The notes beneath the pieces are model-generated. The model was not told the DNA's origin. It saw only the letters and a list, made by a program, of their open reading frames with translations, and did no database searches. A stretch of 64,000 nucleotides of DNA from Verrucomicrobiota bacterium. GTDB taxonomy: Bacteria > Verrucomicrobiota > Verrucomicrobiia > Opitutales > Opitutaceae. The translations under genes were made by a program, and so were the position numbers. Where the stretch lies: NCBI GenBank assembly GCA_030604905.1, contig JAUVVA010000001.1:1-64000 (forward strand), given 5' to 3'. Shown here one piece after another: positions 12,996 through 32,585 of this stretch; within the stretch, counting starts at the first letter, position 1, and every line of letters starts with the position of its first letter.

Positions 12996-13107
12996 TGTAG
13001 TTGTTTTGCCCCTTTTCCGTCTGCCGGCGCGCCGGCGGACGGGACGCGCCCGTGCGCGTGCATTCACCGGCGAATTCCTCGTCGGTTCTTCAACCCCAAC
13101 CCCCACC

Positions 13108-15009
13108 ATGAACCTGCCCCCAATCCTGGGCGCTCCTTTGTCGGGCGCCTTCCTTCGGGCTCGCCGTGTGGCTGGCGCCTGCGCGCTGGCCCTGTTCGCG
13201 GCCCTCGGCGTCTCGAGCGCCTCCGCCTACAACGAGCCCGTCGTGCCCAACGCCACTCCGGAGGCCCGCTCGGTGCTCCGTTACCTCTACGACATCTCCG
13301 GCACCAAGATCCTCTCCGGCCAGATGGGCGAGCGCTGGAGCCCCGCCAACACCGAGAACTACGTCCATGGCGTGATCGGCGCCTATCCCGCGCTCTACGG
13401 GATGGATTTCCTCTTCGAGGACTACACCGATTCCGGCAACAACCGACAGCGGGCCATAGACGCGGTCATTCACCGCTACAAGACCCAGAACGCCATCGGC
13501 ATGATGAGCTGGCATGCTGTGCCGCCGTGGAATCCGGAGAGCGGTGGCTGGAAGGCCATGCACGGCGAGAGTGCGCCCGCCTGGCGTATCGACAACATCC
13601 TCACGCCCGGCACGTCCGAGCACACCGAGTGGATGGCGCGGCTCGACAACATCGCCGGTTACCTGAAGCAGGCGCGGGACGCTGGCGTGCCCATCATCTG
13701 GCGCCCTTTCCATGAGATGAATGGCGGATGGTTCTGGTTCGGCAAGCAAGCGCGCTTTGCGGAGCTTTGGACGCAGATGTATCAGCGCTTCACCGTGCAC
13801 CACGGCCTGAACAATCTGCTCTGGTGCTACTCGCCCAACGCCCCCACCGGCATCACCTGGTCGATCTCGCAGTCGTATCCGGGGCATCAATACGTGGATA
13901 TCCTCGCCCTTGATCTCTACGAAGACCGCGGAAACACCTACAACACGACGCAATACAACAACCTCCTCGCGCTCGCCGAAGGCCGTCCCATCGGCCTGGG
14001 CGAGGTCGGGCGTCTGCCCGATGTGAACACGATCCTGCCGTCTCAGCCGCTCTGGGCCTTCTGGTGCGTGTGGAACGGCTACGAACGTCCCAACGGCGAG
14101 CCCGCCAATACCGACGAGCGCTACGCGAGCGTCTTCGGAAATCCTGCCGTCATCACCCGCGACCAGGTCGTGCTTCCCGCCCCCGACGCGCCTCCCTCCT
14201 CGGGGCTGATCACCAACGGCGGTTTTGAGAACAACCTCGCCTCGTGGACCATCACGCCCGGCACGGCCTCGGTCGTCACCTGGCCGGTGGCGAGCGGGAG
14301 CAAGGCGCTGCAGATCGGCAGCAGCTCCGTCTGGGGCTTCGCCCACCAGAACCCCGTCGGCTGGCAGGTCGGCACCACCTATCGTCTCACCGCCAAGGGT
14401 CGCATGGGCTCCGCCGGCGCCAGCTTCAAGGTCGGCTTCAAGGGCAACAACTTCGACCAGTCGCTGACCTTCTCGAGCACCAGCTACGAGCAGAAGCAGA
14501 TCGACGTCACCGTGCCCGCCGGCGCCACCTGGACGCAGGTTTACGTGAGCCGCGCCATCAGCTCGAACTACGGCTTCGCGGACGACATCTCGCTGACCGT
14601 GGCGCCGCCGAATCTGGTGACGAACGGCGGCTTCGAGGACAACCTGACGGGCTGGACGGTGGACAACAACAGCGCGGTCGTGGTCACCACGCCCGTCGCC
14701 TCCGGCGCCAAGGCGATGCAGATCGGCTCCACCTCGGCCTGGGGCTTCGCGCAGCGCGCGCCGAGCGGCTGGCAGGCGGGCGCGACCTACAAGCTCACCG
14801 CCTCGGGTCGCGTCACCTCCGGCACGGTGCGGGTCGGTTTTAAAGGAAACGGCTTTGATCAGTCGGTGACCTTCTCGACCACGGACTACGAGACGAAGGA
14901 GATCGTGGTCACGGTCCCCGCCGGCGCCACCTGGACGCAGGTCTATGTGAGCCGCGCCACCGGCTCCGGCTACGGCTACGTGGACGACATCGTGCTGCGG
15001 CGCGAATAG
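13108..15009 (+). CDS. GH26 family beta-mannanase-like enzyme with two C-terminal carbohydrate-binding-like modules
   Basis: IIWRPFHEMNGGWFWFG (acid/base Glu) and PIGLGEVGRLPD (nucleophile Glu); duplicated modules NGGFENNLASWTITPG / NGGFEDNLTGWTVDNN. Confidence 0.88.
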   Translation: MNLPPILGAPLSGAFLRARRVAGACALALFAALGVSSASAYNEPVVPNATPEARSVLRYLYDISGTKILSGQMGERWSPANTENYVHGVIGAYPALYGMDFLFEDYTDSGNNRQRAIDAVIHRYKTQNAIGMMSWHAVPPWNPESGGWKAMHGESAPAWRIDNILTPGTSEHTEWMARLDNIAGYLKQARDAGVPIIWRPFHEMNGGWFWFGKQARFAELWTQMYQRFTVHHGLNNLLWCYSPNAPTGITWSISQSYPGHQYVDILALDLYEDRGNTYNTTQYNNLLALAEGRPIGLGEVGRLPDVNTILPSQPLWAFWCVWNGYERPNGEPANTDERYASVFGNPAVITRDQVVLPAPDAPPSSGLITNGGFENNLASWTITPGTASVVTWPVASGSKALQIGSSSVWGFAHQNPVGWQVGTTYRLTAKGRMGSAGASFKVGFKGNNFDQSLTFSSTSYEQKQIDVTVPAGATWTQVYVSRAISSNYGFADDISLTVAPPNLVTNGGFEDNLTGWTVDNNSAVVVTTPVASGAKAMQIGSTSAWGFAQRAPSGWQAGATYKLTASGRVTSGTVRVGFKGNGFDQSVTFSTTDYETKEIVVTVPAGATWTQVYVSRATGSGYGYVDDIVLRRE

Positions 15010-15152: not shown

Positions 15153-15166
15153 GGCAACGTCTTGCC
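15153..15166. promoter_or_regulatory. Candidate LacI-type operator, motif family 1
   Basis: GGCAA-CGTC-TTGCC about 130 bp upstream of 15294. Confidence 0.5.
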
Positions 15167-15293
15167 GAAACTCGGCTTCGTCGTTCTTCGCGCGGAAGCG
15201 AAGCGCGCCTAGAGGTGACGCCGCGAGCTTTGCTCGTGCTCTGCCGCGTCAACCTCAACCCCCTCCCGCTCACCCCGCGGGTGCTTCCCCGAC

Positions 15294-18200
15294 ATGAACA
15301 GAACCCATTCCCCTTCGCGTGACGGCGCTTCGTGCGCCCTCCGCTTTTTGCGCTCCGCGCTCTTCCGGTTCCTTCCGCTCCTTCTGCTGCCGGCGCTCGC
15401 GCTCCGCGCGCAGAGCGCCCTCCAGTGGCAAGCCCTGCAAGAGCCGGGCGTCGGCGGCTGGGTGACCTCGGTCGCCTACAGCCCCCACAACAGCTCGGTC
15501 GTCCTCGTGGCCGGCGACATGCTCGGCATCGGCCGCTCCACCGACGCCGGCTCCACCTGGCGGCGCACATCCGACGGGCTCAACGGCTACGAGATCGCCG
15601 AGTTCACCTTCCACCCCTCGCAGACATCCACCGTCTGGGCCGCCACGATGGAGGGCCCCTACAAGAGCACCGACGCCGGCCTCACCTGGACGCTCAAGGA
15701 CTCCGGCCTCCCCATAAAAGTCTGGGGCGAGTATCACCGATCAGTCCAAAAAATCCTGATCGATCCAAAGAACTCCAACCGCCTGCTCGCTTTCGCCGGC
15801 AACCGCCGCGACTTCAAGCCCGAGAGGCTGCGCAACACCGGCGCCGTCTGGGTGAGCACCAACGGCGGCGAATCCTGGTCACTGCTTTCGCGTATCGACC
15901 CCGCCAATACAGGCCCCGGCCGCAACGTGCGCTCCGCCGTCTATGCCGCGGGCTCCGGCTCCACCACGCTCTACGCCGCCGTAGGCGGGATGCGGGTGAT
16001 GCGCTCCACCGACGACGGCGCCACCTGGCACGCGCGCAGCAACGGCCTGCCCTCCGGCGTCACCGTGCACGCCCTCGCCGCGCACCCGACGCAGCCCGGC
16101 ACGCTCTGGGCCGCCCTCTCCGACGGCCAGCGGGTTTACAAGACCACCGACGGCGGCGCCAATTGGTTCGCCAGCGGCTCCGGCATGCCGACTTCCGGCA
16201 CCGTGACCTCCCTCGCCGTCGCCGCCAACGGCAGCCTGCTCGTCGCCACCAACAGCAAGGAGCACAGCATCCACCGCTCGAACGACGGCGGCGCCTCCTG
16301 GTCGCGAGTCAACGCGGGCGTGGACGAGCCCTATTTCTGGTCGATGACGGTAAACTACGCCGCCATCCGCCCCGGCCAAAACGCCGAGGTGATCGCCGTC
16401 TCCAATGTCTCGATCTTCCGCTCCACCAACTTCACCGCGACCACGCCCGGCTCGGTGACGTGGACCGACACCTCCGCCTATCGCCCCGTCGGCGCCGCCG
16501 CCGCCCACTGGCGCAGCCGCGGCTTCAGCGGCCTCGTCGGAAACAAGGTCACCTTCAACCCCTTCAATCCGAATATCTCCGTCCTCTCCGCGATGGACGA
16601 CGGCAAGGTGCTCGTCTCTCGCGACAATCAGATCACCTGGAAGGCGCGGCATCAAAACGTCACCGTTTACGACCATGGCTACGACGCCTCCTTCGCCGGC
16701 CCCGGCGGTTCGGTGGTCTATGCCGCGATCGGTCAGCATCCGAAGGATCGCCCGAACACCGGCCTCGTGAGGAGCAGCGACGGCGGCCAGACTTGGACGC
16801 AGGTCACCCGCCCGGCCGGCACCCAGGGGCACTGCTCGGCCGTCTATGCCAACCCCGCCAGTCCCGACCACGTGCTGGCGATCTATGACAACCGCCTCTT
16901 TCGCTCCACGACCGGCGGCGCCTCGTGGACCCAGATTCCGGTTTACCTCAACGGCAACCAAGTGACGAACCTCCAGGCCGTGACCGGCAACGGCTTCACC
17001 TCGGCTCCGACGGCCTATTACGTGGCCGGCCGCAGCGGTGCCTGGCGCTCCACCGACGGCGGGCTCACCTGGGCGATCATCAGTTCGCAGGGCATCGGCT
17101 CTGACGGCCAGGTGCGGCTCGCCATCTCGCCCGCCGCGCCGCACCTCGTGTATCGCGTGCTTTGGAACACCGCCAACGACAACACCAGCGGCATCGATCG
17201 CTGGAATAACAACAACTCCACCTGGACCTGGCTCTCCCGCAAATCCGGCAGCTCCCTCTCCTCGCAGTCGATCGCCAACATCTTCTGCGTCGCCATCGAT
17301 CCCATCGACGCCAACCGAATCGCCATCGCCACCAACGAGGATCCCTTCCACGACCGCTACGAGTTCTCGGGCGTCTGGCTGAGCGAGAACGGCGGCGCCT
17401 CCTTCGCGCAGCGCAACTCCGGTCTCGGCGTGCGCCGCTTGCGCTCGCTGGCCTTCTCGCCCGACGGCTCGCGGCTCGTCGCCGGCACCAACGGCGGCGG
17501 CTACTACACGGCCAACGTCGCCTCGCGTCCGGTGCGCCACGAGGCCGAGTTGCTCGCCATCGCCGGCAGCAGCGGCGACAACGCCTACACCGCGCCCGAG
17601 GCGCCGGCCAGCGGCGGGGCGGCCTTCTTCTACGCGAGCGACGCCGTCGGCGACCAGGTGACGCTCGGCCCGGTGCCGATATTCGCCGGTTCGCGCGAGG
17701 TCTCGGTCCGTTACAAGCGCTTCCACAGCCGCGGCATCATCCAGGTCTCGTGGAGCACCCACGCCAACGGCTCCTTCACCTCCCTCGGCACGATCGACAT
17801 GTATGGCGCGGAAACCTACCTCGAGGCCGCGCTGGGCTCGATCAACACCACGCACGGGGAGGTGTTCCTGCGCTTCCAGGTGGTCGGGAAAAACAGCTGG
17901 AGCTCCGGGCACACGATGGGCCTCGACCGCGTGTCCTTCACGCCCACCGGCTCGTCTTTCGCGAGCTGGGCCGCGGAGCGTTTCGACGCCGAGCAGCTCG
18001 CCGACGCCGCCATCTCCGGACCCGAGGCGACGCCCGATCACGACGGCGTGCCCAACCTCCTCAAATACGCCGTTGGCCTCGAGCCCGGCGTGCCCGCGTC
18101 CGCGTCGCCCCTGGTGCTGCTGCCCGCGGCGGAATCGGTCTTCGAGGCCCGGTTTCACCGCGCCCGCGCCGAGTTGCTCTACGAGGTCCTCGCCAGCGTC

Positions 18201-18413
18201 GATCTGCAGGCCTGGGAGGTGGCGGCGGTCAATCCCGGCGAGGTGGGCGGTCTGGTGAGCGTGCCGCTCGGCCCGCTCTCGTCCGAGCACCCGCGCCGCT
18301 TCGTGCGCTTGCGCGTCTCGTCGCTCGCGCCACGGACCGCGTCCGCGCGGAGCCCCCGCGTGCGCCGCGCCTTGCGCGATTCCTCCCGCCCGCTCCGCGC
18401 CGCGCGCGTCTGA
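15294..18413 (+). CDS. BNR/GH74-like beta-propeller protein with CBM-like domain and C-terminal DGVPNL-type module
   Basis: STDAGSTWRR, STDGGLTWAI, SDGGQTWTQ repeats; C-terminal DHDGVPNLLKYAVGLEPG...YEVLASVDLQAWE. Confidence 0.82.
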   Translation: MNRTHSPSRDGASCALRFLRSALFRFLPLLLLPALALRAQSALQWQALQEPGVGGWVTSVAYSPHNSSVVLVAGDMLGIGRSTDAGSTWRRTSDGLNGYEIAEFTFHPSQTSTVWAATMEGPYKSTDAGLTWTLKDSGLPIKVWGEYHRSVQKILIDPKNSNRLLAFAGNRRDFKPERLRNTGAVWVSTNGGESWSLLSRIDPANTGPGRNVRSAVYAAGSGSTTLYAAVGGMRVMRSTDDGATWHARSNGLPSGVTVHALAAHPTQPGTLWAALSDGQRVYKTTDGGANWFASGSGMPTSGTVTSLAVAANGSLLVATNSKEHSIHRSNDGGASWSRVNAGVDEPYFWSMTVNYAAIRPGQNAEVIAVSNVSIFRSTNFTATTPGSVTWTDTSAYRPVGAAAAHWRSRGFSGLVGNKVTFNPFNPNISVLSAMDDGKVLVSRDNQITWKARHQNVTVYDHGYDASFAGPGGSVVYAAIGQHPKDRPNTGLVRSSDGGQTWTQVTRPAGTQGHCSAVYANPASPDHVLAIYDNRLFRSTTGGASWTQIPVYLNGNQVTNLQAVTGNGFTSAPTAYYVAGRSGAWRSTDGGLTWAIISSQGIGSDGQVRLAISPAAPHLVYRVLWNTANDNTSGIDRWNNNNSTWTWLSRKSGSSLSSQSIANIFCVAIDPIDANRIAIATNEDPFHDRYEFSGVWLSENGGASFAQRNSGLGVRRLRSLAFSPDGSRLVAGTNGGGYYTANVASRPVRHEAELLAIAGSSGDNAYTAPEAPASGGAAFFYASDAVGDQVTLGPVPIFAGSREVSVRYKRFHSRGIIQVSWSTHANGSFTSLGTIDMYGAETYLEAALGSINTTHGEVFLRFQVVGKNSWSSGHTMGLDRVSFTPTGSSFASWAAERFDAEQLADAAISGPEATPDHDGVPNLLKYAVGLEPGVPASASPLVLLPAAESVFEARFHRARAELLYEVLASVDLQAWEVAAVNPGEVGGLVSVPLGPLSSEHPRRFVRLRVSSLAPRTASARSPRVRRALRDSSRPLRAARV

Positions 18414-18417
18414 GCCG

Positions 18418-18431
18418 GGAAACGCTTTGCC
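18418..18431. promoter_or_regulatory. Candidate LacI-type operator, motif family 1
   Basis: GGAAA-CGCT-TTGCC just upstream of 18467. Confidence 0.5.
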
Positions 18432-18466
18432 CATCTCCGCGTTCGAGCCACCCGGACGCGGAGACC

Positions 18467-19870
18467 ATGTTTTTCGCCATGCCCTCTCTCGCCACCCCGC
18501 CGCTTTCCCTGCACCACGATTTCACCCTCGCCGCCGACGAACTTCGCGTGTGCGCGAATCCGCACAAGGGCTGGTATCTGCACCATTTTGACAACGGCCT
18601 CGCGCGCTACGGCGCCTTGCTCGATCCGCAGGATCGCCTGCTCGATTTCCCCGGCCTCTCCACGCTCTACCTGCGCATCCCCTGGTGCGAGCTCGAGCCC
18701 GAGGAGGGCCGCTTCGCCTGGCACCTGATCGACGAGGTGGCCGACGCCTGGCTGCCCACCGGCCGCACGCTCGCCTTTTGCGTGAGCTGCAAGGAGACCG
18801 ATCGCGCCTATCCCTTCGCCACGCCCGCCTGGGTGCGCGAGGCCGGCGCCCGGGGGAGCTTCATCCCGAGCGGAAACGGCGAGTGGCGGACCTGGGAGCC
18901 CGACTACGGCGATCCCGTGTTTCTGGCGAAGCTCGAGGCCTTTCATCTCGCCTTCGCCGCGCGCTACGACGGCCGACCCTGGGTCGAGTGGATCACGGTC
19001 GGCAGCTATGGCGACTGGGGCGAGGGGCACACCTGCGCCTCCAGTCGGCGCGAGTGGCCGGTGGAGGTGATTCGCCGCCACCTCGATCTCTATCGGCGCT
19101 GCTACCCGCTCAGCCGCATCGAGGCCAACGACGACCTGGTGGGCAGCCGCCTCGACCGCGCGGGCGCGGAGGAGCTGCGCCGCCACATCGACGAGTGCGG
19201 CTTCGCGCTCACCGACCACGGCGTGTGCGTGGACTGGTTTGCCCGCCACTTTGGCCCGAGCACGCTGCGCGACGCCTCCTGGCTGGCCCGCGCCTCGGAG
19301 CGCGCGCCCGTCGTGCTCGAGCTGGAGCACTACCACATCACGCGACGCACCGGAAACTGGAAGGACGGCGCGCCGCTGCGGCTCGCCATCGAGGAGACGC
19401 GCGCCACCTACGCCGGCTTTCACGGCTGCGCGCGCACCTGGCTGGGTGAAAACGCCGACTACGCGCGCCAGGTCGCCAATCTGCTCGGTTACTGGCTCTT
19501 CCTGCACGAGGTCGAGTGGCTGGCGGGAGCCGAGCCGGGCGACCCGGTGCGTTTGCGCGTGCGTTGGCAAAACCGCGGCGTCGCTCCGCTCTACCACGCG
19601 GCCGATCTGGTGCTGCGGCTGCAGCCGGTCTCCGGCGCGCCCGCCACCGCGTGCAAGCTGCGCGAGATCGGCCCGGCCGAGACGCCGCCGGGCCGCGCGG
19701 TGGAGCTGCGCGTGGAGCTTGAGCGGCGCCCGGAGCCCGGGGCCTATCGCGCCTCGCTCGGGCTGGTGGATCGGCGCACGGCATTCCCGGTGCGCTTCGC
19801 GATCGAGGAAACGCGCGAGACGCCCGATGGCTTCGTGCGCCTCGACGGCGCGTCCTGGGTGCTGAGGTAG
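18467..19870 (+). CDS. Glycosidase-like protein (TIM-barrel, DUF4832-type organisation)
   Basis: NPHKGWYLHHFDN, TLYLRIPWCELEPEEGRFAWHLID, WVEWITVGSYGDWGEGHT (TIM barrel-like), C-terminal beta domain. Confidence 0.7.
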   Translation: MFFAMPSLATPPLSLHHDFTLAADELRVCANPHKGWYLHHFDNGLARYGALLDPQDRLLDFPGLSTLYLRIPWCELEPEEGRFAWHLIDEVADAWLPTGRTLAFCVSCKETDRAYPFATPAWVREAGARGSFIPSGNGEWRTWEPDYGDPVFLAKLEAFHLAFAARYDGRPWVEWITVGSYGDWGEGHTCASSRREWPVEVIRRHLDLYRRCYPLSRIEANDDLVGSRLDRAGAEELRRHIDECGFALTDHGVCVDWFARHFGPSTLRDASWLARASERAPVVLELEHYHITRRTGNWKDGAPLRLAIEETRATYAGFHGCARTWLGENADYARQVANLLGYWLFLHEVEWLAGAEPGDPVRLRVRWQNRGVAPLYHAADLVLRLQPVSGAPATACKLREIGPAETPPGRAVELRVELERRPEPGAYRASLGLVDRRTAFPVRFAIEETRETPDGFVRLDGASWVLR

Positions 19871-19994
19871 GGGCCCGCGAATCGGGGCCGGAGCGGGCGT
19901 GCCCTCACGCCCGCCGCTCGGCGCGAAGAGGCGGCGCGGAGGGCGTGGCGGGCACGCTCTCTTCGGCTTGGCACGCGGCGGCTCGCCGCCGCGC

Positions 19995-22034
19995 TCACTC
20001 CGGTGCGGAGTGTTTCCAGACGCCGTAGCAGGCGGTGGCGAACCAAGCCTCGCGGGTGCGCGGGTGCAAGCGCACCCACTGGGGCTCGCGGCCGCCGTCG
20101 AGCCGCGTGCCGTCGAGCGGCCGGGTGAGGTTGAGGTTTTCCCAGGTCGCTCCGGCGTCGCGCGAGCGCAGCGCGCCGGCCGAGCTGGCGAAGGTGTCGC
20201 GGTTGGCGGCGACGTAGATCACCGCGGGATCTCGGGGATCGAGCGCCACGGAGCGCACGCGCGGCGCGCCCGTCTGGTCGTGCGGCAGCGCGGGGTCGGG
20301 CAGGTAGGCGCCGCCCTGCCAGACGCGCAGGCGGTTTTGCTCGACCACGAGGTAGCGGTCGCGCGCCGGATCGTAGGCGAGATCGGTGACGCCGCCCTCG
20401 GCGGTGAAGACCGCGGTCCAGCTCGCGCCGCCATCGCGGGAGCGCACGATCCGCACCGCGCCGCCGCCTTGATCGACGCCGACCAGCTCGCCGTTGCGGG
20501 TGTCGTGGGTGAAGACGTGCGTCGCGCCGTTCATCACGGTCCAGGTGCGGCCGCCGTCGGTCGAGCGATGCTGGCTGGCGAAGAGCGTGCGCGCGGAGCG
20601 CGGGTCGCCGTTGGAGACGAGCGGCGTCGCCATGGTGAGTTTCGTGAGGTCCCAGCCGCGGCCGCCGTCTTGCGAGACGTTGACGATCTTGGGCGCGCCC
20701 CAGCCGGCGGCCTCGCCGACCACGAGCTGCCCGGGCGTGCTGGCGTAGGCGGCGTAGTTGAAGCCGCCCCACTCCTTGCCACCGGGAGCGAAGTAGCGCC
20801 AGGACTCGCCGCCGTCGGTGGTGAGCATGGCGCCGTAGTCCTGCGAGCCGAGGAAGAGCACGTCGGGATCGGTGGCGGAGAAGTTGAAGGAGCCGCCGAC
20901 GAGGAGGTTGTTCACGCCGTTGCCGGCGAAGGCGTAGCTGCGCCCGCCGTCGCGCGAGAGGGCGGGGTAGTCGCCGCCGGAGCTGAGGAGGATGTCGGCG
21001 TCGAGCGGGTGAAAGGCGAACTGCGCCTCGCGCGCGTTGGACGGGATGAGCGTGAAGCCGCGCTCGATCCGCGATTCGTGCCAGTAGCCCGGATTCCATT
21101 GGAAAAAGACGAGGCGCCGCGGGTCGGAGGGCGCGACGGTGATGTTGCGGAAGACGCCCTTCTCGCGGACGAGGGCGTCGGCGGCGGAGTTGCGTTGCCA
21201 GGTGAGGCCGCCGTCGGTCGAGCGCCAGACGGAGTCCGGTCGCGTGGCCCAGACGAGCTCCGGCGCGGCCGGCGTGGTGTCGATGCCGGTAGCGGGGCCC
21301 TCGAGCGTGGTGGTCCAGGTGCGGCCGCCGTCGGTGGAGCGGAGCACGCCGGCCTCGCCGGCCGCGAGCAACACGCCCGAGCCCGGGAGCACGGCGAGTT
21401 GCGCGCTGGCCGCCGCTTCGCCGCCCGGCACCTCGGCCCAGGTCTCGCCGCCATCCTCGGTCTTGTAGAGCGCGCGATGGGGCTCGGGCGGGGCGCCAAA
21501 CATCGGCCGGTCCGGCGCGAGGCGCGACCAGTAGGCCACGCGCGTGAAGCCGAGGCGCTCGTCGTAGGTGGAGGGATCGTAAACGAGGGAGCGGCGGGCG
21601 CGATCCTGCGAGCCCGACTGGGTGACGGGCAGCACCTCGCGCCAGGAGGCGGCGCCGTCGGTCGTGAGGTAAACGCCGTTGAAGCGATGCACGCCGGAAT
21701 TGGCCGCCACCACGATGGCGCGGGCGGGGTTGCGCGGGTCGATCGCGGCCGCGGCCGAGCCGCGCGAGTGGAAGCCGATGTTGGCCGGTTCCCAGTTTTT
21801 GCCGCCGTCGAGCGAGCGGAAGAGGCCGCCGACGTCGGTGCACCAGAGCATGAAGTCGCCGCTCGTGCGGTCCACCGCGAGGGCGCGGAACCACTGCGCG
21901 CCGTCGCCGGTGATCACGCCTTTGGCGCGCAGCTCGGGGTTGGTGAAGGTGACGGGGCGCCACTCGGCGAGGGCCGGCTGGGCGAGGAGGGCGAGGAGGG
22001 CGGCGAGGGCGGCGGGCGAGAGGCGGGGGAACAT
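19995..22034 (-). CDS. BNR-repeat/GH74-like beta-propeller protein, secreted
   Basis: Signal peptide MFPRLSPAALAALLALLAQPALA; LWCTDVGGLFRSLDGGKNWEPANIG and repeated STDGGxTW motifs; upstream ATG at 22058 also possible. Confidence 0.83.
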   Translation of the reverse strand: MFPRLSPAALAALLALLAQPALAEWRPVTFTNPELRAKGVITGDGAQWFRALAVDRTSGDFMLWCTDVGGLFRSLDGGKNWEPANIGFHSRGSAAAAIDPRNPARAIVVAANSGVHRFNGVYLTTDGAASWREVLPVTQSGSQDRARRSLVYDPSTYDERLGFTRVAYWSRLAPDRPMFGAPPEPHRALYKTEDGGETWAEVPGGEAAASAQLAVLPGSGVLLAAGEAGVLRSTDGGRTWTTTLEGPATGIDTTPAAPELVWATRPDSVWRSTDGGLTWQRNSAADALVREKGVFRNITVAPSDPRRLVFFQWNPGYWHESRIERGFTLIPSNAREAQFAFHPLDADILLSSGGDYPALSRDGGRSYAFAGNGVNNLLVGGSFNFSATDPDVLFLGSQDYGAMLTTDGGESWRYFAPGGKEWGGFNYAAYASTPGQLVVGEAAGWGAPKIVNVSQDGGRGWDLTKLTMATPLVSNGDPRSARTLFASQHRSTDGGRTWTVMNGATHVFTHDTRNGELVGVDQGGGAVRIVRSRDGGASWTAVFTAEGGVTDLAYDPARDRYLVVEQNRLRVWQGGAYLPDPALPHDQTGAPRVRSVALDPRDPAVIYVAANRDTFASSAGALRSRDAGATWENLNLTRPLDGTRLDGGREPQWVRLHPRTREAWFATACYGVWKHSAPE

Positions 22035-22111
22035 GGCGGGGAGGGGAGGGTAGGGCATGGAGGGCAGGCCCCGAGCTTGGGGCGGCGCCCGGGCGTATCC
22101 AGAACGGGAGC

Positions 22112-22127
22112 CGGCAACGCGTTGCCG
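22112..22127. promoter_or_regulatory. Perfect 16-bp palindrome, candidate LacI autoregulatory operator, motif family 1
   Basis: CGGCAACGCGTTGCCG between divergent 19995-22034(-) and 22213-23358(+). Confidence 0.65.
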
Positions 22128-22212
22128 ATCACGAGCCGAGTCCCGCCTCGATGCTACGATCACACAAACTTTTGAATACGTTCTTTCGGATTTGTTTCCT
22201 TACTCTTCCTCC

Positions 22213-23358
22213 ATGACCCCGCCCCGGAAGACTGCGTCGCGCCCCGAGGAGAAACCGTCCGTCGAAGCCGAGGCCTCCGCGCATCTGAGCCTCGCCGCGC
22301 TGGCCGAGGCGGCCGGCGTGTCGGTGGCGACCGCTTCGCGCGCCATGCGCGACCACTGCCGCGTGTCGCTCGAGGTGCGCCGCCATGTGCAGGCGGTGGC
22401 GGAGAAAATCGGCTACCGGCCCAATCCGCTCGTCGCCTCGCTCATGCACCAGATCCGCGAGCGCCAGGTGAAGGCCTTTCAGGGCGTGGTCGCGATGATC
22501 GGCTGCGCCTCGTCGCGCGCAGAGTGGGAGCGCAACGCGGTCGCTCGCCTCTTCTGGGCGGGCGTCGAGGCCGAGGCGAAGCGGCTGGGGTTCCAAGCCG
22601 AGCTGCTGCTGCCGCGCGCCGAGGGATTGCCGCGCGCCCGTCTCGCGGGGCTGCTGCGCGCGCGCGGCATCGTGGGGGCCGTGTTGCTCGACCAGCCGCG
22701 CGCCCACCCGGACCGGCAGGAGCTGCTGGTGGACGAGCCGGTGGTCGATCCCGGCGTGCTGCCGCTCGTGCTCGTCGGCCACAAGCACCTCCACCCGACG
22801 ATCAGCTTCGCGATGAGCGACCAATACGCCAACGCGCGCCGCGTGGGGCGGCTGCTTTGGGAGCGCGGGTATCGCCGCCCGCTCCTGTTTTCCACCCGCT
22901 ATGTCGCGGCGGTGACGGAGAACCGTTTCGAGGCCGGCCTGGCCTACGCGGGCGAGCCCGGCTGGCTCGCGGTGCTGCACTCGCACGCGCTGCTGCCGCC
23001 GGGGCTCGGCGAGGCGCTCCGCTCCGCTTTTCTCGCCCAGGCGAAGGAGCAGCTGTTGGCGCGCATCCGGAAGCACCGGGCGGACGTCGTCGTCTCGGTG
23101 GACAACGAGACCCTGCGCTGGATGCGCGAGGCGGGGCTCGAGACGCCGGGCGAGATCGGCTTCGCCTCCCTCGATTGGTGCGCGGATCTCGCGTCGATCT
23201 CCGGCATCGAGCAGCGGCACGAGGTGGTGGGCGCGGTGGCCACGCGCAGGCTGGCCGAGCTGGTCGCGCGCAACGAATCCGGGCCGCAGGAGATCGTCTC
23301 GGGCCTCCTCGTCGAGGGCGCGTGGCGCGAGGGCGCCACGCTGCGCGCGGCCTCGTGA
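22213..23358 (+). CDS. LacI-family transcriptional regulator
   Basis: [53 protein letters not shown]. Confidence 0.93.
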
Positions 23359-23369
23359 GCGAGCCGCTT

Positions 23370-23383
23370 GGCAACGCGTTTCC
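23370..23383. promoter_or_regulatory. Candidate LacI-type operator, motif family 1
   Basis: GGCAA-CGCG-TTTCC, 12 bp after lacI stop and 47 bp upstream of prepilin start. Confidence 0.5.
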
Positions 23384-23429: not shown

Positions 23430-24146
23430 ATGCCCCGCCACACCCCATCTCCCCGACGCGGCTTCACGCTGATCGAGCTGCTCACCGTCATCGCCATCAT
23501 CGGCATCCTCGCCGCGATCCTCGTCCCGGTCGTGGGCCGCGTGCGGGACTCCGCGCGCCAGTCCACTTGCGCCAGCAACCTCCGCCAGATCGGCACCGCG
23601 GCGCTCCTCTGGTATCAGGACAACCCGCGCTCCAAGCTCCAGCCGCAGATCACCGAGCCCGATCCCAACAACCCGGGCTCGACCTGGAACGTGTCGTGGA
23701 CCGCGGCGCTGTTTCCCTACTTCGGCGTTCCCAACACCCAGCAGTATCCCTCGCAACCCGACCTCACGCACTGCTCGATGATCCGCCACGACGGCACTTG
23801 GCAGCGAAATTCCTACGGCATCAACGTGCTCACCAACGACCCCAACTGGCGCGCCGGCATTGGCGCCATCCGCGAGCCCGCCCGCACGATCCTCGCCGGC
23901 GACGTCGTCGGCACCACACTCGATCCCAACGCCCGCAACGCCTTCCAGGTTCTCAATCCTCCTGGCTACGGTAGCAGCAGCCCGACCGACATGGCCTACA
24001 TGGCCACCCGGCACTCCGGCGGCTCGCGCGCCAACATCGTCTTCTACGACGGCCACGTGGAAACCGTGGACCGCGACAAGTATCACTGGCCCACTCTCGG
24101 CGGCTTCACCACCAGCGCGCCGCAGAATCCCTGGAAGCCCTGGTAG
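23430..24146 (+). CDS. Prepilin-type N-terminal cleavage/methylation protein (DG-type pseudopilin)
   Basis: [36 protein letters not shown] and C-terminal [20 protein letters not shown]. Confidence 0.9.
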
Positions 24147-26703: not shown

Positions 26704-27759
26704 TCATGCCGCCGCTTTACTCACTCGTTGAGTTCCCCGCGCTTTTCCCGGCGTGGATCGCCCGTCCACCCAATGGCCCGGCGTCTGGACCACCTTGGGC
26801 AGGGGCGGCACGCCGCGGACGTTCAGATGCAGGCCTTCGACGGCGAGCTCCACCGCGGTGGCGCCCACCGTTTCCAGTTTTTGATCGATCCCGCTGAACT
26901 CGGGATGGTCGTCGCGCCAGTTGAGCAACACGAAGCCGAGCGGGCCGGCGGGGGCGATGAGGCGGTGGCGGAGCAGGATCTCGCCGACCCAGGGCTGCGG
27001 GGTGAGGATCGCGTCGGGTCGGTGCTCGGCGATCCAGGCGCGCGCCTCGTCCAGCCGCCATTCGGTCCAGACGTAGGGCGGCATCGGGACGGTGAGGCCC
27101 GCATGCTGGCAGACGAGGTAGCCCGCGACCCACTGGTGGTAGAGCCACTTGTCGGAGGCGAGCGGTTCGAAGAACGCGATGCGGCGGTAACCGCGGTGCC
27201 GGAGCTGGCGCACCGCGAGGGTGAGGCAGGCGGCGTAGTTGGGCGAGGCGCGGTGCAGGTCGGGACGCCAGAGCGAGAAGCCGACCGCGGCGCAGGCGAA
27301 GGGCGACAGATCCAGCGTGAGGTGGCCGTGCTGCGCCTGCATCGGCCCCACCACGATGCCCTCGATGCCGCGGTGGAGGAGGATCGAGCGGATGCGCGCG
27401 GTGCTCATGCGCGGCTCGAGGGTCCAGATCTCCTCGAGACGGTAGCCGAGCGCGATGGCGCGCGTCTCGGCGCCGCGGAAGATCGGGCCGAGCGAGCGGT
27501 CGCGGCGCATGTGGGTGCGATCCTGCCAGGAGTTGAAGTAGGCGAGCACGCTGCCCGCGGGCGTGGCTTCGCGGCGGCGGAGCTTGGCCATGATGGCACT
27601 CACCGCGGGGTTGCGTTCGTAGCCGAGCTTCTCGGCGACCTGCCGGATGCGGCGGCGGGTCGTCGAGGGCAGGCTGGGATGATCGCGAAGCGCCAGGGAG
27701 ACGGTGGAGCGGTCGACGCCGGCGGCGGCGGCGACGTCTTTCATCGTGATCGTGGGCAT
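26704..27759 (-). CDS. LacI-family transcriptional regulator
   Basis: MPTITMKDVAAAAGVDRSTVSLALRDHPSLPSTTRRRIRQVAEKLGYERNPAV. Confidence 0.94.
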   Translation of the reverse strand: MPTITMKDVAAAAGVDRSTVSLALRDHPSLPSTTRRRIRQVAEKLGYERNPAVSAIMAKLRRREATPAGSVLAYFNSWQDRTHMRRDRSLGPIFRGAETRAIALGYRLEEIWTLEPRMSTARIRSILLHRGIEGIVVGPMQAQHGHLTLDLSPFACAAVGFSLWRPDLHRASPNYAACLTLAVRQLRHRGYRRIAFFEPLASDKWLYHQWVAGYLVCQHAGLTVPMPPYVWTEWRLDEARAWIAEHRPDAILTPQPWVGEILLRHRLIAPAGPLGFVLLNWRDDHPEFSGIDQKLETVGATAVELAVEGLHLNVRGVPPLPKVVQTPGHWVDGRSTPGKARGTQRVSKAAA

Positions 27760-27798
27760 CGGGTGACGGGGTGGGGAATGCGTGGGCGTGGTGCGGTC

Positions 27799-28845
27799 TC
27801 AGGGGGCGCGGGATCGCGGGAGCGCCGCGTCAGCAGGTGGCGTGATCCAGCGGCTTTCAATCAGGGAAAAGCGTTGGACCCGCGGAGGGCCCAGCTCGTG
27901 GCGCTGGATTTGGCCGACCAGCATGTCCACCGCCACCGCCCCGAGCTCCTCCGTCCTCTGGTCGGCGCCATACCAGTCGCCCAGCGCGGGGGTCCAGTCG
28001 AGGTGGGCCAGAGCGATGCGCCCGAAGGGGTCGAGCCCACCCTCGCGGAGAAGGCGGGGAAGGCGTTGGTCGTAGGTGATGATGGCGTCGAGGCGGTGAC
28101 TTCGCGCCCAGCTCACCAGGCCTTGCGGTTCTTTTTTCAAGTCAAGCACCGGCGGGCAGCGCCGAGGTCCCCGTCCGGCGTGGGCGGCCCAATAGCCGGC
28201 GGTGAACCGGTGCTCGAGGCGCTCGTCGTCCGTCACGGCGAGCCCGATGCGACGCCGGCCGAGCGCCTGCAGTTCGCGGACGGCCAGCATGACGGTGGCG
28301 TATTGGTCGTTTGCCGCGCAGCTCACCGACGGTTCCACCACCCGCCGGCCGGCGACCACGACGGCAAAGCGCCCCCACACCTCCGCAAACTCCGCCGGCA
28401 AGCGCTGGTGCTCGCGGGGCGACACGACGACGGCGCCGTCGATCCCGCGCGCCCGGAGGATGCGCTTCAAACGCGCGCCGGTCATCTCGGGATCCCGCAG
28501 TCGAAACTGCGCCACCTCATACCCGAGCTCGCGGGCCCGCTCGATGATTCCGCGAGCGAGGCGGCCGCGGTGGGAGAGGGGATCTTCGCGCAGGTCGGCT
28601 TGCGTGGAGCCGTTGAGCAAGGCGAGCGTGGCCCGGTAGCGCGGTGTGCGGCTGGCGCGGAGCTGGGCCATGAGTTTGCCGACAAGCGGGTTTGCCCGAT
28701 AACCCTGGGCCTCGGCCGCGGCCCTCACCCGCCTCCGCGTTTGCTCTTCCACCCCGCGCTCGCCCTGGAGCGCGCGCGCCACGGTGCTTTTGCTCACGCC
28801 GGCCGCCACGGCGATCGAACGAATGGTCGGCTTGGGCGGTTTCAT
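27799..28845 (-). CDS. LacI-family transcriptional regulator
   Basis: MKPPKPTIRSIAVAAGVSKSTVARALQGERGVEEQTRRRVRAAAEAQGYRANPLV; start trimmed to the ATG before the HTH. Confidence 0.93.
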   Translation of the reverse strand: MKPPKPTIRSIAVAAGVSKSTVARALQGERGVEEQTRRRVRAAAEAQGYRANPLVGKLMAQLRASRTPRYRATLALLNGSTQADLREDPLSHRGRLARGIIERARELGYEVAQFRLRDPEMTGARLKRILRARGIDGAVVVSPREHQRLPAEFAEVWGRFAVVVAGRRVVEPSVSCAANDQYATVMLAVRELQALGRRRIGLAVTDDERLEHRFTAGYWAAHAGRGPRRCPPVLDLKKEPQGLVSWARSHRLDAIITYDQRLPRLLREGGLDPFGRIALAHLDWTPALGDWYGADQRTEELGAVAVDMLVGQIQRHELGPPRVQRFSLIESRWITPPADAALPRSRAP

Positions 28846-28967
28846 GGGACTGTCCCGACGGGAAGCTTTCGCGGCGTTGCCCGTGAAAGGCGAGTCTTCT
28901 CCACAGCCGGGTGCGAGCAAGGCCGAGCCTGGGCCGGACGCCCCGTTCAACACCCCTTCGCGCCACC

Positions 28968-29885
28968 ATGCCCGCTCCCCTGCTCTACGAATCCCACATG
29001 CACACGCCGCTGTGCCGACACGCCTCCGGGCAGCCGGAGGACTACGCGGCGGTGGCGGAGGCGCGCGGGCTGCGCGGTATCATCGTCACCGACCACAATC
29101 CGATCCCGGGCGGCTACTCGGCCGACATCCGGATGCGGGAGGAGCAGTTCGACGACTACCTGGCCCTGGTGGCCCGGGCTCGCGCGGCTTTCGCCGGCCG
29201 CGTGGATGTGCGTCTCGGGCTCGAGTGCGACTACGCGCCGGGCCTGGAGAAGGACGTCGAGGCGCTGCTCAAACGCGCCGACTTCCACCACGTGCTCGGC
29301 TCGGTGCACACGCACGCGCCCTGCTACAAGCGTGTCTACCTGACGGGCTCCTGGTTCGAGTTTCAGCAGACTTATTTCGAGCACCTCGCGCTCTCCGCCG
29401 AGACCGGGCTCTTCGACACCATCGCGCACCCCGACCTGGTGAAAAACGAGTCGCCGCAGGAGTGGCATCTGCCCCGGATCGCGCCGCACATCCTGCGCGC
29501 TCTCGACCGCATCGCCGAGACCGGCGTGGCGATGGAGCTCAACACCTCCGGGCTCTTGAAAACCATCCCGGAGATGAACCCCGGTCCGGAGATGCTCCGC
29601 GCGATGCGCGAGCGCGGCATCCCGGTGGTGATCGGCGCCGACGCGCATCGGCCCGAGCGGGTGGCGGACCGCTATGTCGAGGCGCTGCATCTCCTCGCCG
29701 CGACTGGCTATGAACACACGAGCCAATTCCTCGGGCGGAAGCGTCACGACGTGCCGATCCACGACGCGATCGCCAGTCTGACGGCGCCGGAGGAGGCGGG
29801 AAGCGGCGTCTTTTTTACCGATAAAAACCGCGGCTTCTTTCGCCCTTCGCCCGCTCCGCTAGCGTCGACTTCGACGGATCGATGA
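28968..29885 (+). CDS. PHP-domain histidinol-phosphatase-like protein
   Basis: ESHMHTPLCRHASGQPEDYAAVAEARGLRGIIVTDHNP; GSVHTHAPCYKR; DTIAHPDLVKN; VVIGADAHRPE metal-binding motifs. Confidence 0.85.
   Translation: MPAPLLYESHMHTPLCRHASGQPEDYAAVAEARGLRGIIVTDHNPIPGGYSADIRMREEQFDDYLALVARARAAFAGRVDVRLGLECDYAPGLEKDVEALLKRADFHHVLGSVHTHAPCYKRVYLTGSWFEFQQTYFEHLALSAETGLFDTIAHPDLVKNESPQEWHLPRIAPHILRALDRIAETGVAMELNTSGLLKTIPEMNPGPEMLRAMRERGIPVVIGADAHRPERVADRYVEALHLLAATGYEHTSQFLGRKRHDVPIHDAIASLTAPEEAGSGVFFTDKNRGFFRPSPAPLASTSTDR
29812..29827. promoter_or_regulatory. Candidate operator, motif family 2
   Basis: TTTTTA-CCGA-TAAAAA about 108 bp upstream of prepilin 29935, inside 3' end of the PHP gene. Confidence 0.35.
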
Positions 29886-29934
29886 ATCCGCGCCGCCCCT
29901 TTTCCCCCTCCCCATCTCCCAACCACCCCCGCCC

Positions 29935-30639
29935 ATGTCCTCCCCAAGCCTCTTCAGTCGTCCCGTCCCGTCCCGGCGCCGCGCGCCCGGTTTCACGCTC
30001 ATCGAACTGCTCACCGTGATCGCCATCATCGGCATCCTGGCCGCGATCATCATCCCGACGGTGGGGCGGGTGAGAGAGTCCGCCCGCTCCGCGCAGAGCA
30101 CCTCCAACGTGCGGCAGACCGCGACGGTGCTGCTGCTTTACGCGAACGACAACCGCAACACGCTCCCGCCCGGCTGGAACGACGCCGACAACGTGCCGGT
30201 TCGACAGGTATGGCAGGATCGCGTCGCGCCCTACGTCGGACTGGCGGCGGGGCAGATGCGGGTGAGCCCGGCCAATGTGCTCAGTTCGCCCTATCAGACT
30301 CTCACCGGCCGCGACGACTGGTGGGCGGAGGGCCGCAGCTTCGGCCTCAACACCTTCGCCTACGATCCCAACGCCCGCCCGCAGTGGGGGCGCAACATGG
30401 GCAAGGTCCGCGACACCAGCCGGATTCTTCTGGTCGGCGACATGACGCAGGGTGAAAACGATTTCGTCGGGCCGCCCACGGGGGTGAACCCCAACGCGGC
30501 CCGTCGCCCCGCCTTCCGTCACGGCGGCGGCCGGATCGCCCACTTCGCCTTCTGCGACGCCAGCGTGCGGGGCCTCACCAGCGCGGAGCTCGAGCTGAAT
30601 CCCGCCGACGGCTCGCCCAGCCTATGGCGTTGGTGGTAG
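29935..30639 (+). CDS. Prepilin-type N-terminal cleavage/methylation protein
   Basis: [40 protein letters not shown]-terminal RHGGGRIAHFAFCDASVRGL...SLWRWW. Confidence 0.92.
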   Translation: MSSPSLFSRPVPSRRRAPGFTLIELLTVIAIIGILAAIIIPTVGRVRESARSAQSTSNVRQTATVLLLYANDNRNTLPPGWNDADNVPVRQVWQDRVAPYVGLAAGQMRVSPANVLSSPYQTLTGRDDWWAEGRSFGLNTFAYDPNARPQWGRNMGKVRDTSRILLVGDMTQGENDFVGPPTGVNPNAARRPAFRHGGGRIAHFAFCDASVRGLTSAELELNPADGSPSLWRWW

Positions 30640-30669
30640 TCGACCGCGGTTCATCTCCCTGGGGCCCGG

Positions 30670-30697
30670 CGCCGACTTATACCAGTATAAGTCGGCG
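30670..30697. promoter_or_regulatory. 28-bp near-perfect palindrome, candidate operator, motif family 2
   Basis: CGCCGACTTATAC-CA-GTATAAGTCGGCG, 13-bp perfect arms, 100 bp upstream of prepilin 30797. Confidence 0.6.
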
Positions 30698-30796
30698 TTG
30701 CTTTTGAATCAGACGGGTTTGTGCAGCGTGGGCACGTGACGATACCGACGCGGTCTAATCGTCCAAACAATCCACCCCGGTTGCTTTACCCCCGCC

Positions 30797-31513
30797 ATGA
30801 ATGCCCCTCGTGCCCACCTCCCTTGCGAACCGGCCCGGCCCGGTTTCACGCTCATCGAGCTGCTCACCGTGATCGCCATCATCGGCATCCTGGCCGCCAT
30901 TCTTATCCCGACGGTCGGCAAAGTGCGGGAGAGCGCCCGCCAGTCGGCCTGCGCGAGCAACGTGCGCCAGCTGGCCGTCGCGCAGCAACTGTATGCCAAC
31001 GAGAACAACGGCCGCTTCACCGTCGGCTTCGACATGGCCGATGGCGCGACCGTGATCTGGCAGGCGCGCTTGTTGCCCTACCTCTCGATTCGCCAGGGCA
31101 ACAATTCCCAGCTCACGGCCAACCAATACCGCACGATGCCGGGCAACCTCTACGTCTCGCCGCTGCACACCTCCGACGAGCGCTTCCTGGCCGGCCAGGC
31201 GCTCACGAGCTATCGCCTCAACGTGAACTTGAACGCCTGGAGCTGGTGGACCGGCGGGCCGCGTTGGTCGTTCCGCGCCGACGCGCCGCCGTCTCCCTCC
31301 CGCGTGCTCCTTCTCGGAACCTGCCGCCTCGACAACGTGGATTACGTGATGCCCGACTGGGAAAACTGGGGCAACTGGAGCATTGTCGATATCCCCGGCT
31401 CCTCGCAGCGCCGCTTCAACTGGGCCTTTGCGGACGGGCACGTGCAGTCGCTCACCCGCGAGCAACTCGCGGACGGGAGCCCCGAAGGCCGCGCTCGCTG
31501 GCGCTGGTGGTAG
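30797..31513 (+). CDS. Prepilin-type N-terminal cleavage/methylation protein
   Basis: [48 protein letters not shown]-terminus RARWRWW. Confidence 0.92.
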   Translation: MNAPRAHLPCEPARPGFTLIELLTVIAIIGILAAILIPTVGKVRESARQSACASNVRQLAVAQQLYANENNGRFTVGFDMADGATVIWQARLLPYLSIRQGNNSQLTANQYRTMPGNLYVSPLHTSDERFLAGQALTSYRLNVNLNAWSWWTGGPRWSFRADAPPSPSRVLLLGTCRLDNVDYVMPDWENWGNWSIVDIPGSSQRRFNWAFADGHVQSLTREQLADGSPEGRARWRWW

Positions 31514-32585
31514 CCAGCTTATCGGGGCGCGACAGGTCCGCGCCGTCGCGCCAGCAGCCTTTGACCACGATCTCGTAGGGCAGGGCGGGCGGGCCGACCT
31601 CGTTGCGGTAGAGCTGGCCGACCACGAGGTCCACGGCGGCGGCGGCGACCGCGGCGTGGCGCGAGTCGATGCCGCTCGCGCTCGCGGGGCCCGCGGAGAG
31701 GTTGAGCTGCACCACGTCGGGCCGGCAACGCTCCGGGGCGTGTTCGAGCACGAAGGCCGCGTGGTAGGTCATCACCACATCGGGCCGGTGCGCGCGGAGC
31801 CAGCGCGTGAGCGGGGGGACGCCGCGCTCGTCGTAGCCGGGCAGGACGAGCGGCGGGGGCTGTGGCTCCTTGCAATCAGCCTCGGCCAGCAGGCAGCGCG
31901 CGCGCTGGGAGCCGTCGGCGAGGCGGTCGTTGGCCACGTCGATCACCAGCCCGATGCGTTCGTAGCCACGCGCGCGCAGGGTGCGCCAGGCGAGGCCGAG
32001 ATTTTGCGACATCGCCGGGCGGGCGCCGTGAAACACCGCGCCTCCCGCCGGGGCGGAATCGTCGTTGAGGTGCGTGGCCGCGCCGATCGTCACCACCGCG
32101 AAGTCAGACCAGTCGCGCCCCGCCTGCGCCGGATCAAGGGGCCAGGGCAGGAGCACGCCGCGGATGCCGCGGGCGCGCAGGGTGCGGAGCAGTCGATCGA
32201 CCTTGCGCGGGTGCTGGTCGCTCCGCGGCAGGTGAAACTCCTCGAGGCCAAAGCCGAGCGCGGAGGCGCGTTCGCGCGCGCCCTGGAGGTAGCCGTCGGC
32301 CCAGCCGGTGCGGCGCCAGAAGTCCGGCGCATCCTCCTCGTTGATCCAGGCGAGGTTGGCCTGGAAGCCCGGTCGCCGCCGCGCCCGCACCTGCGCTTGG
32401 TAGGCGGAGATCAGCGGATTGGGCCGGTAGCCCAGCTCCTTCGCGATGGCCAGCACCCGCTCGCGGGTCGCGGCCGAGGGGCCTGGGCGCTGCCGCAGCA
32501 CGAGCGAGACCGTCATGGTGGACACTCCGGCGCGCGCGGCGACCTCGGGCAAACCGCAGGGCGCGGGGGAGGGCGGGGGTTTCAT
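31452..32585 (-). CDS. LacI-family transcriptional regulator
   Basis: CGLPEVAARAGVSTMTVSLVLRQRPGPSAATRERVLAIAKELGYRPNPLI; 3' end overlaps convergent prepilin gene by 62 nt. Confidence 0.92.
   Translation of the reverse strand: MKPPPSPAPCGLPEVAARAGVSTMTVSLVLRQRPGPSAATRERVLAIAKELGYRPNPLISAYQAQVRARRRPGFQANLAWINEEDAPDFWRRTGWADGYLQGARERASALGFGLEEFHLPRSDQHPRKVDRLLRTLRARGIRGVLLPWPLDPAQAGRDWSDFAVVTIGAATHLNDDSAPAGGAVFHGARPAMSQNLGLAWRTLRARGYERIGLVIDVANDRLADGSQRARCLLAEADCKEPQPPPLVLPGYDERGVPPLTRWLRAHRPDVVMTYHAAFVLEHAPERCRPDVVQLNLSAGPASASGIDSRHAAVAAAAVDLVVGQLYRNEVGPPALPYEIVVKGCWRDGADLSRPDKLATTSASERGLRGSRPRVARG

Follow-up and report, generated by a model that had tools for sequence, protein, structure and literature searches.

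A predicted local LacI regulon with operators of an uncommon, CytR-like type in a genome of the family Opitutaceae (Verrucomicrobiota)

The stretch of 64,000 nucleotides analyzed here (the window; positions 1 to 64,000 of the forward strand of contig JAUVVA010000001.1, assembly GCA_030604905.1) belongs to a bacterium of the family Opitutaceae in the phylum Verrucomicrobiota and carries a gene of a LacI-family regulator starting at 22213 (the 22213 protein). An earlier note, made from the sequence alone, had read four palindromes of the form GGMAA-CGNN-TTKCC around this gene as its operators, and had proposed that two BNR proteins, a glycosidase and a pseudopilin make up a local module under its control. 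The genes and the predicted operators are as follows.

13006-15009: GH26 gene, preceding the module
15153-15166, plus strand: predicted operator site 1, GGCAACGTCTTGCC; intergenic, after the GH26 gene, 128 bp before the start codon at 15294
15294-18413, plus strand: GH74/sortilin-like BNR protein of 1039 amino acids, predicted target; Pfam Sortilin-Vps10 (3.5e-29) and BNR (1.1e-9), xyloglucan hydrolase 2cn3 in the PDB (2.1e-11)
18418-18431, plus strand: predicted operator site 2, GGAAACGCTTTGCC (GGAAA-CGCT-TTGCC), the weakest in symmetry; 5 bp after a stop codon, 36 bp before the start at 18467
18467-19870, plus strand: DUF4832 protein, weakly GH35-like, predicted target; Pfam 2.4e-9, GH35 beta-galactosidases only at E 0.2
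19995-22034, minus strand: second BNR/GH74-like protein, divergent from lacI, predicted target; Pfam BNR (4.9e-18), xyloglucan hydrolase 2cn2 (1.7e-15)
22112-22127, no strand: full perfect 16-bp palindrome of site 3, CGGCAACGCGTTGCCG, in the intergenic region shared by lacI and the divergent BNR gene
22113-22126: core of predicted operator site 3, GGCAACGCGTTGCC; 87 bp from the lacI start at 22213 and 79 bp from the BNR start at 22034
22213-23358, plus strand: LacI-family regulator of 381 amino acids; Pfam LacI PF00356 (5.3e-12), with solved LacI-family proteins matching the DNA-binding domain
23370-23383, plus strand: predicted operator site 4, GGCAACGCGTTTCC (GGCAA-CGCG-TTTCC); 11 bp past the lacI stop codon, 46 bp before the pseudopilin start at 23430
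23430-24146, plus strand: DUF1559-type pseudopilin with a prepilin N-terminus, predicted target; Pfam N_methyl (6.5e-9) and DUF1559 (1.1e-6)

The two BNR proteins of the earlier note are more exactly described, from their Pfam and PDB matches, as GH74/sortilin-like, and the prepilin assignment at 23430 agreed with the Pfam results, while the gene at 18467, previously called glycosidase-like, codes for a DUF4832 protein with only a weak resemblance to GH35. The four palindromes were read directly in the sequence at 15153, 18418, 22113 and 23370, all of them intergenic and 36-128 bp 5' of a start codon, each an even palindrome of inverted repeats with 5-bp arms and a constant 4-bp spacer. Site 3 is indeed the core of a perfect 16-bp palindrome, although it lies at 22113-22126 and not at 22114-22127 as first given. 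LacI-family sites are usually found 30-140 bp upstream of start codons, and 72% of the studied LacI regulon members have an operator at the promoter of the regulator itself (PMC4052901). The distances in the window (128, 36, 87/79 and 46 bp) fit this range, and the palindrome at 22112-22127, 87 bp before the lacI start, would be the operator at the regulator's own promoter. No match to a sigma-70-like promoter was seen in the region, and neither the GH26 gene nor two further BNR genes before the module are preceded by the motif.

We examined the rarity of the motif with the pattern GGMAACGNNTTKCC, a consensus fitted to the four sites themselves. In the window it matched at these four places only (0.08 expected from shuffles). 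The genome-wide scan that the earlier note had called for, made on the 4,187,951-base draft genome (234 contigs), confirmed the rarity of the motif, which occurred at eight places in 4.19 Mb, four of them within 8.2 kb (Poisson P ~1.6e-10 for the cluster, ~1.6e-7 once corrected for the number of windows), and a reversed control pattern had no match in the whole genome. Because the pattern had been fitted to the sites, we also searched the 710 intergenic bases for palindromes with arms of any 5-bp sequence. A count of palindrome families without weighting by base composition could not separate the GGCAA family from GC-rich noise; in the weighted count, which was made after the unweighted one and is the result reported here, GGCAA with a spacer of four was the top family. 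None of 3000 dinucleotide shuffles reached its score at the same spacer, and none of 1500 did so over spacers 0-8, with a thin margin in the latter case (best shuffle 8.17, against 8.20). The other four places in the genome were not added to the predicted regulon, since they did not stand clearly above chance: one (C82:43252) lies inside a giant adhesin-like gene, one (C49:45723) within the terminal part of another lacI reading frame, and two (C95:23270 and C201:3315) about 50-70 bp upstream of potential start codons of unrelated genes.

The LacI-type N-terminal helix-turn-helix (HTH) domain of the 22213 protein is above the Pfam cut-off and has, in E. coli LacI numbering, the recognition residues V17, A18 and R22, followed by the hinge NPLVASLM (V53, L56, M57), in which the hinge-helix leucine L56 is present. 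A set of 160 LacI-type proteins, almost all of them from the same family, was collected together with 300 bp of upstream and 200 bp of downstream sequence; the selection, by similarity to the 22213 protein and later to its homologues, does not make a random sample. The motif GCAA-N4-TTGC was found beside ten of the 160, namely nine of the 16 with [VTA]17-[SA]18-R22 and one of the 144 others (Fisher 7e-10, an optimistic value because the helix class was defined after the sites had been seen). The nine site-bearing members of the class fall into one branch of 12 proteins that includes the 22213 protein (SH-aLRT 92, in one quick tree). In the second-best homologue (genome G020, 36% identity), GAGCAAACCGTTGCCT precedes the lacI gene and GGGCAACGGTTTGCCC follows its stop codon at 13 bp, before a large TonB-receptor-like gene, an arrangement as at 22213; in the homologue locus L011 the distance of a site from the lacI stop codon is 13 bp, where it is 11 bp for site 4. 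The G020 16-mer occurs a second time at C23:95347, in a low-GC, mobile-looking region, and this copy was left aside; matches in six genomes (G075, G063, G002, G007, G009 and G019) were discarded because they were in coding sequences or near unrelated genes.

Several sites per locus are a feature of the relatives as well. Within 20 kb around the regulators of five genomes (G034, G128, G279, G059 and G020), there were 20 GCAA-N4-TTGC sites, against 1.12 expected from the genome rates. Since these loci had been partly chosen by a site beside lacI, the count was repeated without such sites, and it remained about 12-fold enriched (13 against 1.1 expected, P 2.5e-10). Of five further 20-kb stretches, four were free of sites (two beside the G020 locus, one beside that of G034 and one on the window's own contig), and the fifth, L276 beside the G034 locus, had four. 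In total, 26 of the 38 sites in the examined loci were labelled intergenic, approximately, by a simple gene caller, and the genes next to the relatives' sites encode TonB receptors, MFS sugar transporters, a sulfatase, GH57, GH88, GH130 and beta-helix proteins. The conservation check came out in two parts: the operator type and the local multi-site layout are kept at the homologues, but the target genes of the window are not found next to them (best LacI identity 36%). As a separate observation, L266 and L276 of G034 together carry nine such sites, spread over 28 kb in two clusters separated by about 14 kb, which suggests that a single LacI governs one large polysaccharide locus.

The predicted operators resemble those of CytR. 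The E. coli protein, with the recognition residues T17, A18 and R22, belongs to the same helix class as the 22213 protein. In the absence of CRP, the optimal CytR site consists of inverted GTTGCATT repeats separated by a GC spacer (PMC3454398), and the core of that site, GCAACGCGTTGC, is the same as the core of site 3. Three of the four window sites have a CytR-type GCAAC/GTTGC core in one or both halves, with the outer T of TGCAAC/GTTGCA replaced by G. The two systems also differ in that the half-site spacing is variable in CytR and constantly 4 here, and in that CytR has a flexible linker where the 22213 protein has a hinge with Leu56; scored with the NCBIfam CytR model NF008269, the 22213 protein reached only 23.6 bits (cut-off 436) and is not an orthologue of CytR. 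The operators of GalR and CcpA have a G at -6, read by R22, and an A at -4 and -3. The window sites share these bases, and the combination of R22 with this G agrees with the published recognition code, in which the two are paired (PMC2978694), whereas the C at -5 and a dyad without CG set them apart. With the local regulons of the LacI/GalR family in general, the system has in common a LacI HTH protein, even palindromes and an operator at its own promoter and at neighboring carbohydrate genes, and differs in having GC or GT at the dyad where most of those have CG (PMC4052901).

Taking these results as a whole, we consider it highly probable that the 22213 protein binds the four predicted operators and controls itself and the neighboring genes, as the earlier note had proposed; the rarity of the motif, the match of the helix class and the site clusters around the relatives support this proposal. 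A dimer of the protein would bind (G)GCAA-CGNN-TTGC(C) at the four intergenic places of its own neighborhood, so that site 3 would control lacI itself and the divergent BNR gene, site 1 the BNR gene at 15294, site 2 the DUF4832 gene and site 4 the pseudopilin gene. By family precedent the protein probably acts as a repressor, and would come off the DNA when it meets a degradation product derived from a plant-type polysaccharide. Our best guess for the source of this effector is xyloglucan or mannan, since the neighboring GH26 and GH74-like genes suggest hemicellulose. Several points weigh against this proposal. Site 2 is the least symmetric of the four, and the C-terminal ligand-binding domain Peripla_BP_3 of the 22213 protein scores below the Pfam cut-off (9.6e-4; 19.7 bits against 26.5). 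At least 20 further LacI-type genes are present in the same genome. Three members of the branch with L or I at position 17 (L010, L054 and L109) have no perfect site, the upstream sequence of L010 ending at a contig end. Moreover, no orthologue of the 22213 protein above 36% identity was found in 252 genomes of the family, nor was a close one found in a search of the genome_contigs collection, so that the four sites could not be footprinted in an orthologous locus.

The first alternative is that only the strongest sites, at 22113 and 23370, are functional, serving autoregulation, the pseudopilin and the divergent BNR gene, and that those at 15153 and 18418 are fortuitous. The latter two are less symmetric, and 18418 is only 5 bp past a stop codon; taken together, however, the four sites rank first among the palindrome families of the intergenic DNA, and the relatives show several sites per locus, and we regard this alternative as unlikely. 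It is also conceivable, but in our judgment quite improbable, that the four sites do belong to a single regulon but that another LacI-family protein of this genome binds them; the genome has at least 21 LacI-type matches to the 22213 protein (73 first-look candidates), and related regulators can share operators. The candidates in the window, all on the minus strand (26704-27759, 27799-28953 and the 31452 region), have RSL, KSR and TML at positions 17/18/22, lie outside the branch with GCAA sites and have no such palindrome next to them, whereas the best site is located at the promoter of 22213. Chance clustering of palindromes in a GC-rich genome, which might be suspected because the motif was read off those very four sites and the remaining four places in the genome have no evident link to the regulon, is hardly credible given the rarity in window and genome, the shuffle scan, the cluster P value and the site clusters around the relatives.

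Some observations concern the neighboring genes. A hairpin, TCTCCGCG...CGCGGAGA, lies at 18434-18464, immediately before the ATG at 18467, and its 3' arm contains GGAGA, the would-be ribosome-binding site of the DUF4832 gene; it may be due to chance or may control translation of that gene. The DUF4832 gene was set aside as a guide to conserved sites, as its sole good relative (G195, 41%) had no perfect site in the stretch examined. Genes of the lacI type near DUF1559-type pseudopilin genes recur at 26704-31578 of the window, where three more lacI genes are accompanied by pilins at 29935 and 30797, and one lacI-pilin pair is present on contig C49 of the same genome (L039:4640-6949).

The center of the palindromes did not agree with the central CG that the earlier note had assigned to them: the dyad pairs of sites 1-4 are GT, GC, GC and GC, and the CpG is one bp off the dyad. 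A central CG was found in none of the 14 sites of the branch, window sites included, and in none of 26 intergenic sites near the relatives (a set overlapping the 14). In 13 of the 14, a CpG directly abuts AA or TT on one side or both; the same holds for nine of ten without the window's own sites (26% expected, P 4e-5) and for 19 of the 26. In the survey of LacI-family regulons, the text of which has no mention of Verrucomicrobia, 1173 of 1303 regulators have a central CG and 49 another central pair (PMC4052901). The hinge of the site-bearing branch members carries V53 and M57, while Ala is the family norm at position 53 (PMC2978694); the same two residues are frequent in the rest of the collected LacI proteins as well. 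The LacI of contig 12 of G128 (L280:7610-8641), found by a profile and missed by a regular-expression search, has A53, the hinge NRVARRL and the recognition residues I17, S18 and R22. Four GCAAACGTTTGC sites with a central CG lie at L280:7511, 8687, 11619 and 11796, one on each side of this lacI and two near a TonB-receptor-like gene, and L280 is likely another local LacI regulon. It resembles the window in the GCAA/TTGC arms, in the four sites near the regulator's own gene and in its recognition residues (I17, S18, R22), and differs in the spacer ACGT with its central CG and in the A53 hinge. The pairing of A53 with GCAAACGTTTGC against V53 and M57 with GCAA-CGNN-TTGC is a single contrast and not a test of hinge against dyad. 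A de novo palindrome search in the other helix classes yielded conserved candidates only for some sets of three near relatives, not enough for testing the hinge type against the dyad pair. A more novel reading, which we hold to be less likely than not, is that the branch with the changed V53/L56/M57 hinge helix reads operators whose CpG is displaced by one bp from the dyad, with another mode replacing the near-universal insertion of the hinge leucines at a central CpG.

Three palindromes of odd length were common to the flanks of near relatives: TCTAAC-C-GTTAGA (L015, L027 and L127), TTCGAC-C-GTTGAA (L017, L018 and L032) and TTCAGAC-A-GTCTGAA (L135, L169 and L175). They are possible operators of other LacI groups, and the first two groups may be further cases of a changed center in the same radiation.

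The local LacI regulon with its uncommon CytR-like predicted operators is well supported by the sequence comparisons; the regulon itself is new, and its kind is known. The displaced CpG, if real, offers natural material on how the LacI hinge helix reads the center of an operator. We found no paper on the operators of this group's LacI regulators in the open literature, most subscription journals being outside the search. The genomes of the group carry dozens of LacI-type regulators, and one branch of them now has a predicted operator, a helix class and polysaccharide-utilization neighbors in several genera, which together make regulon prediction possible in that branch.

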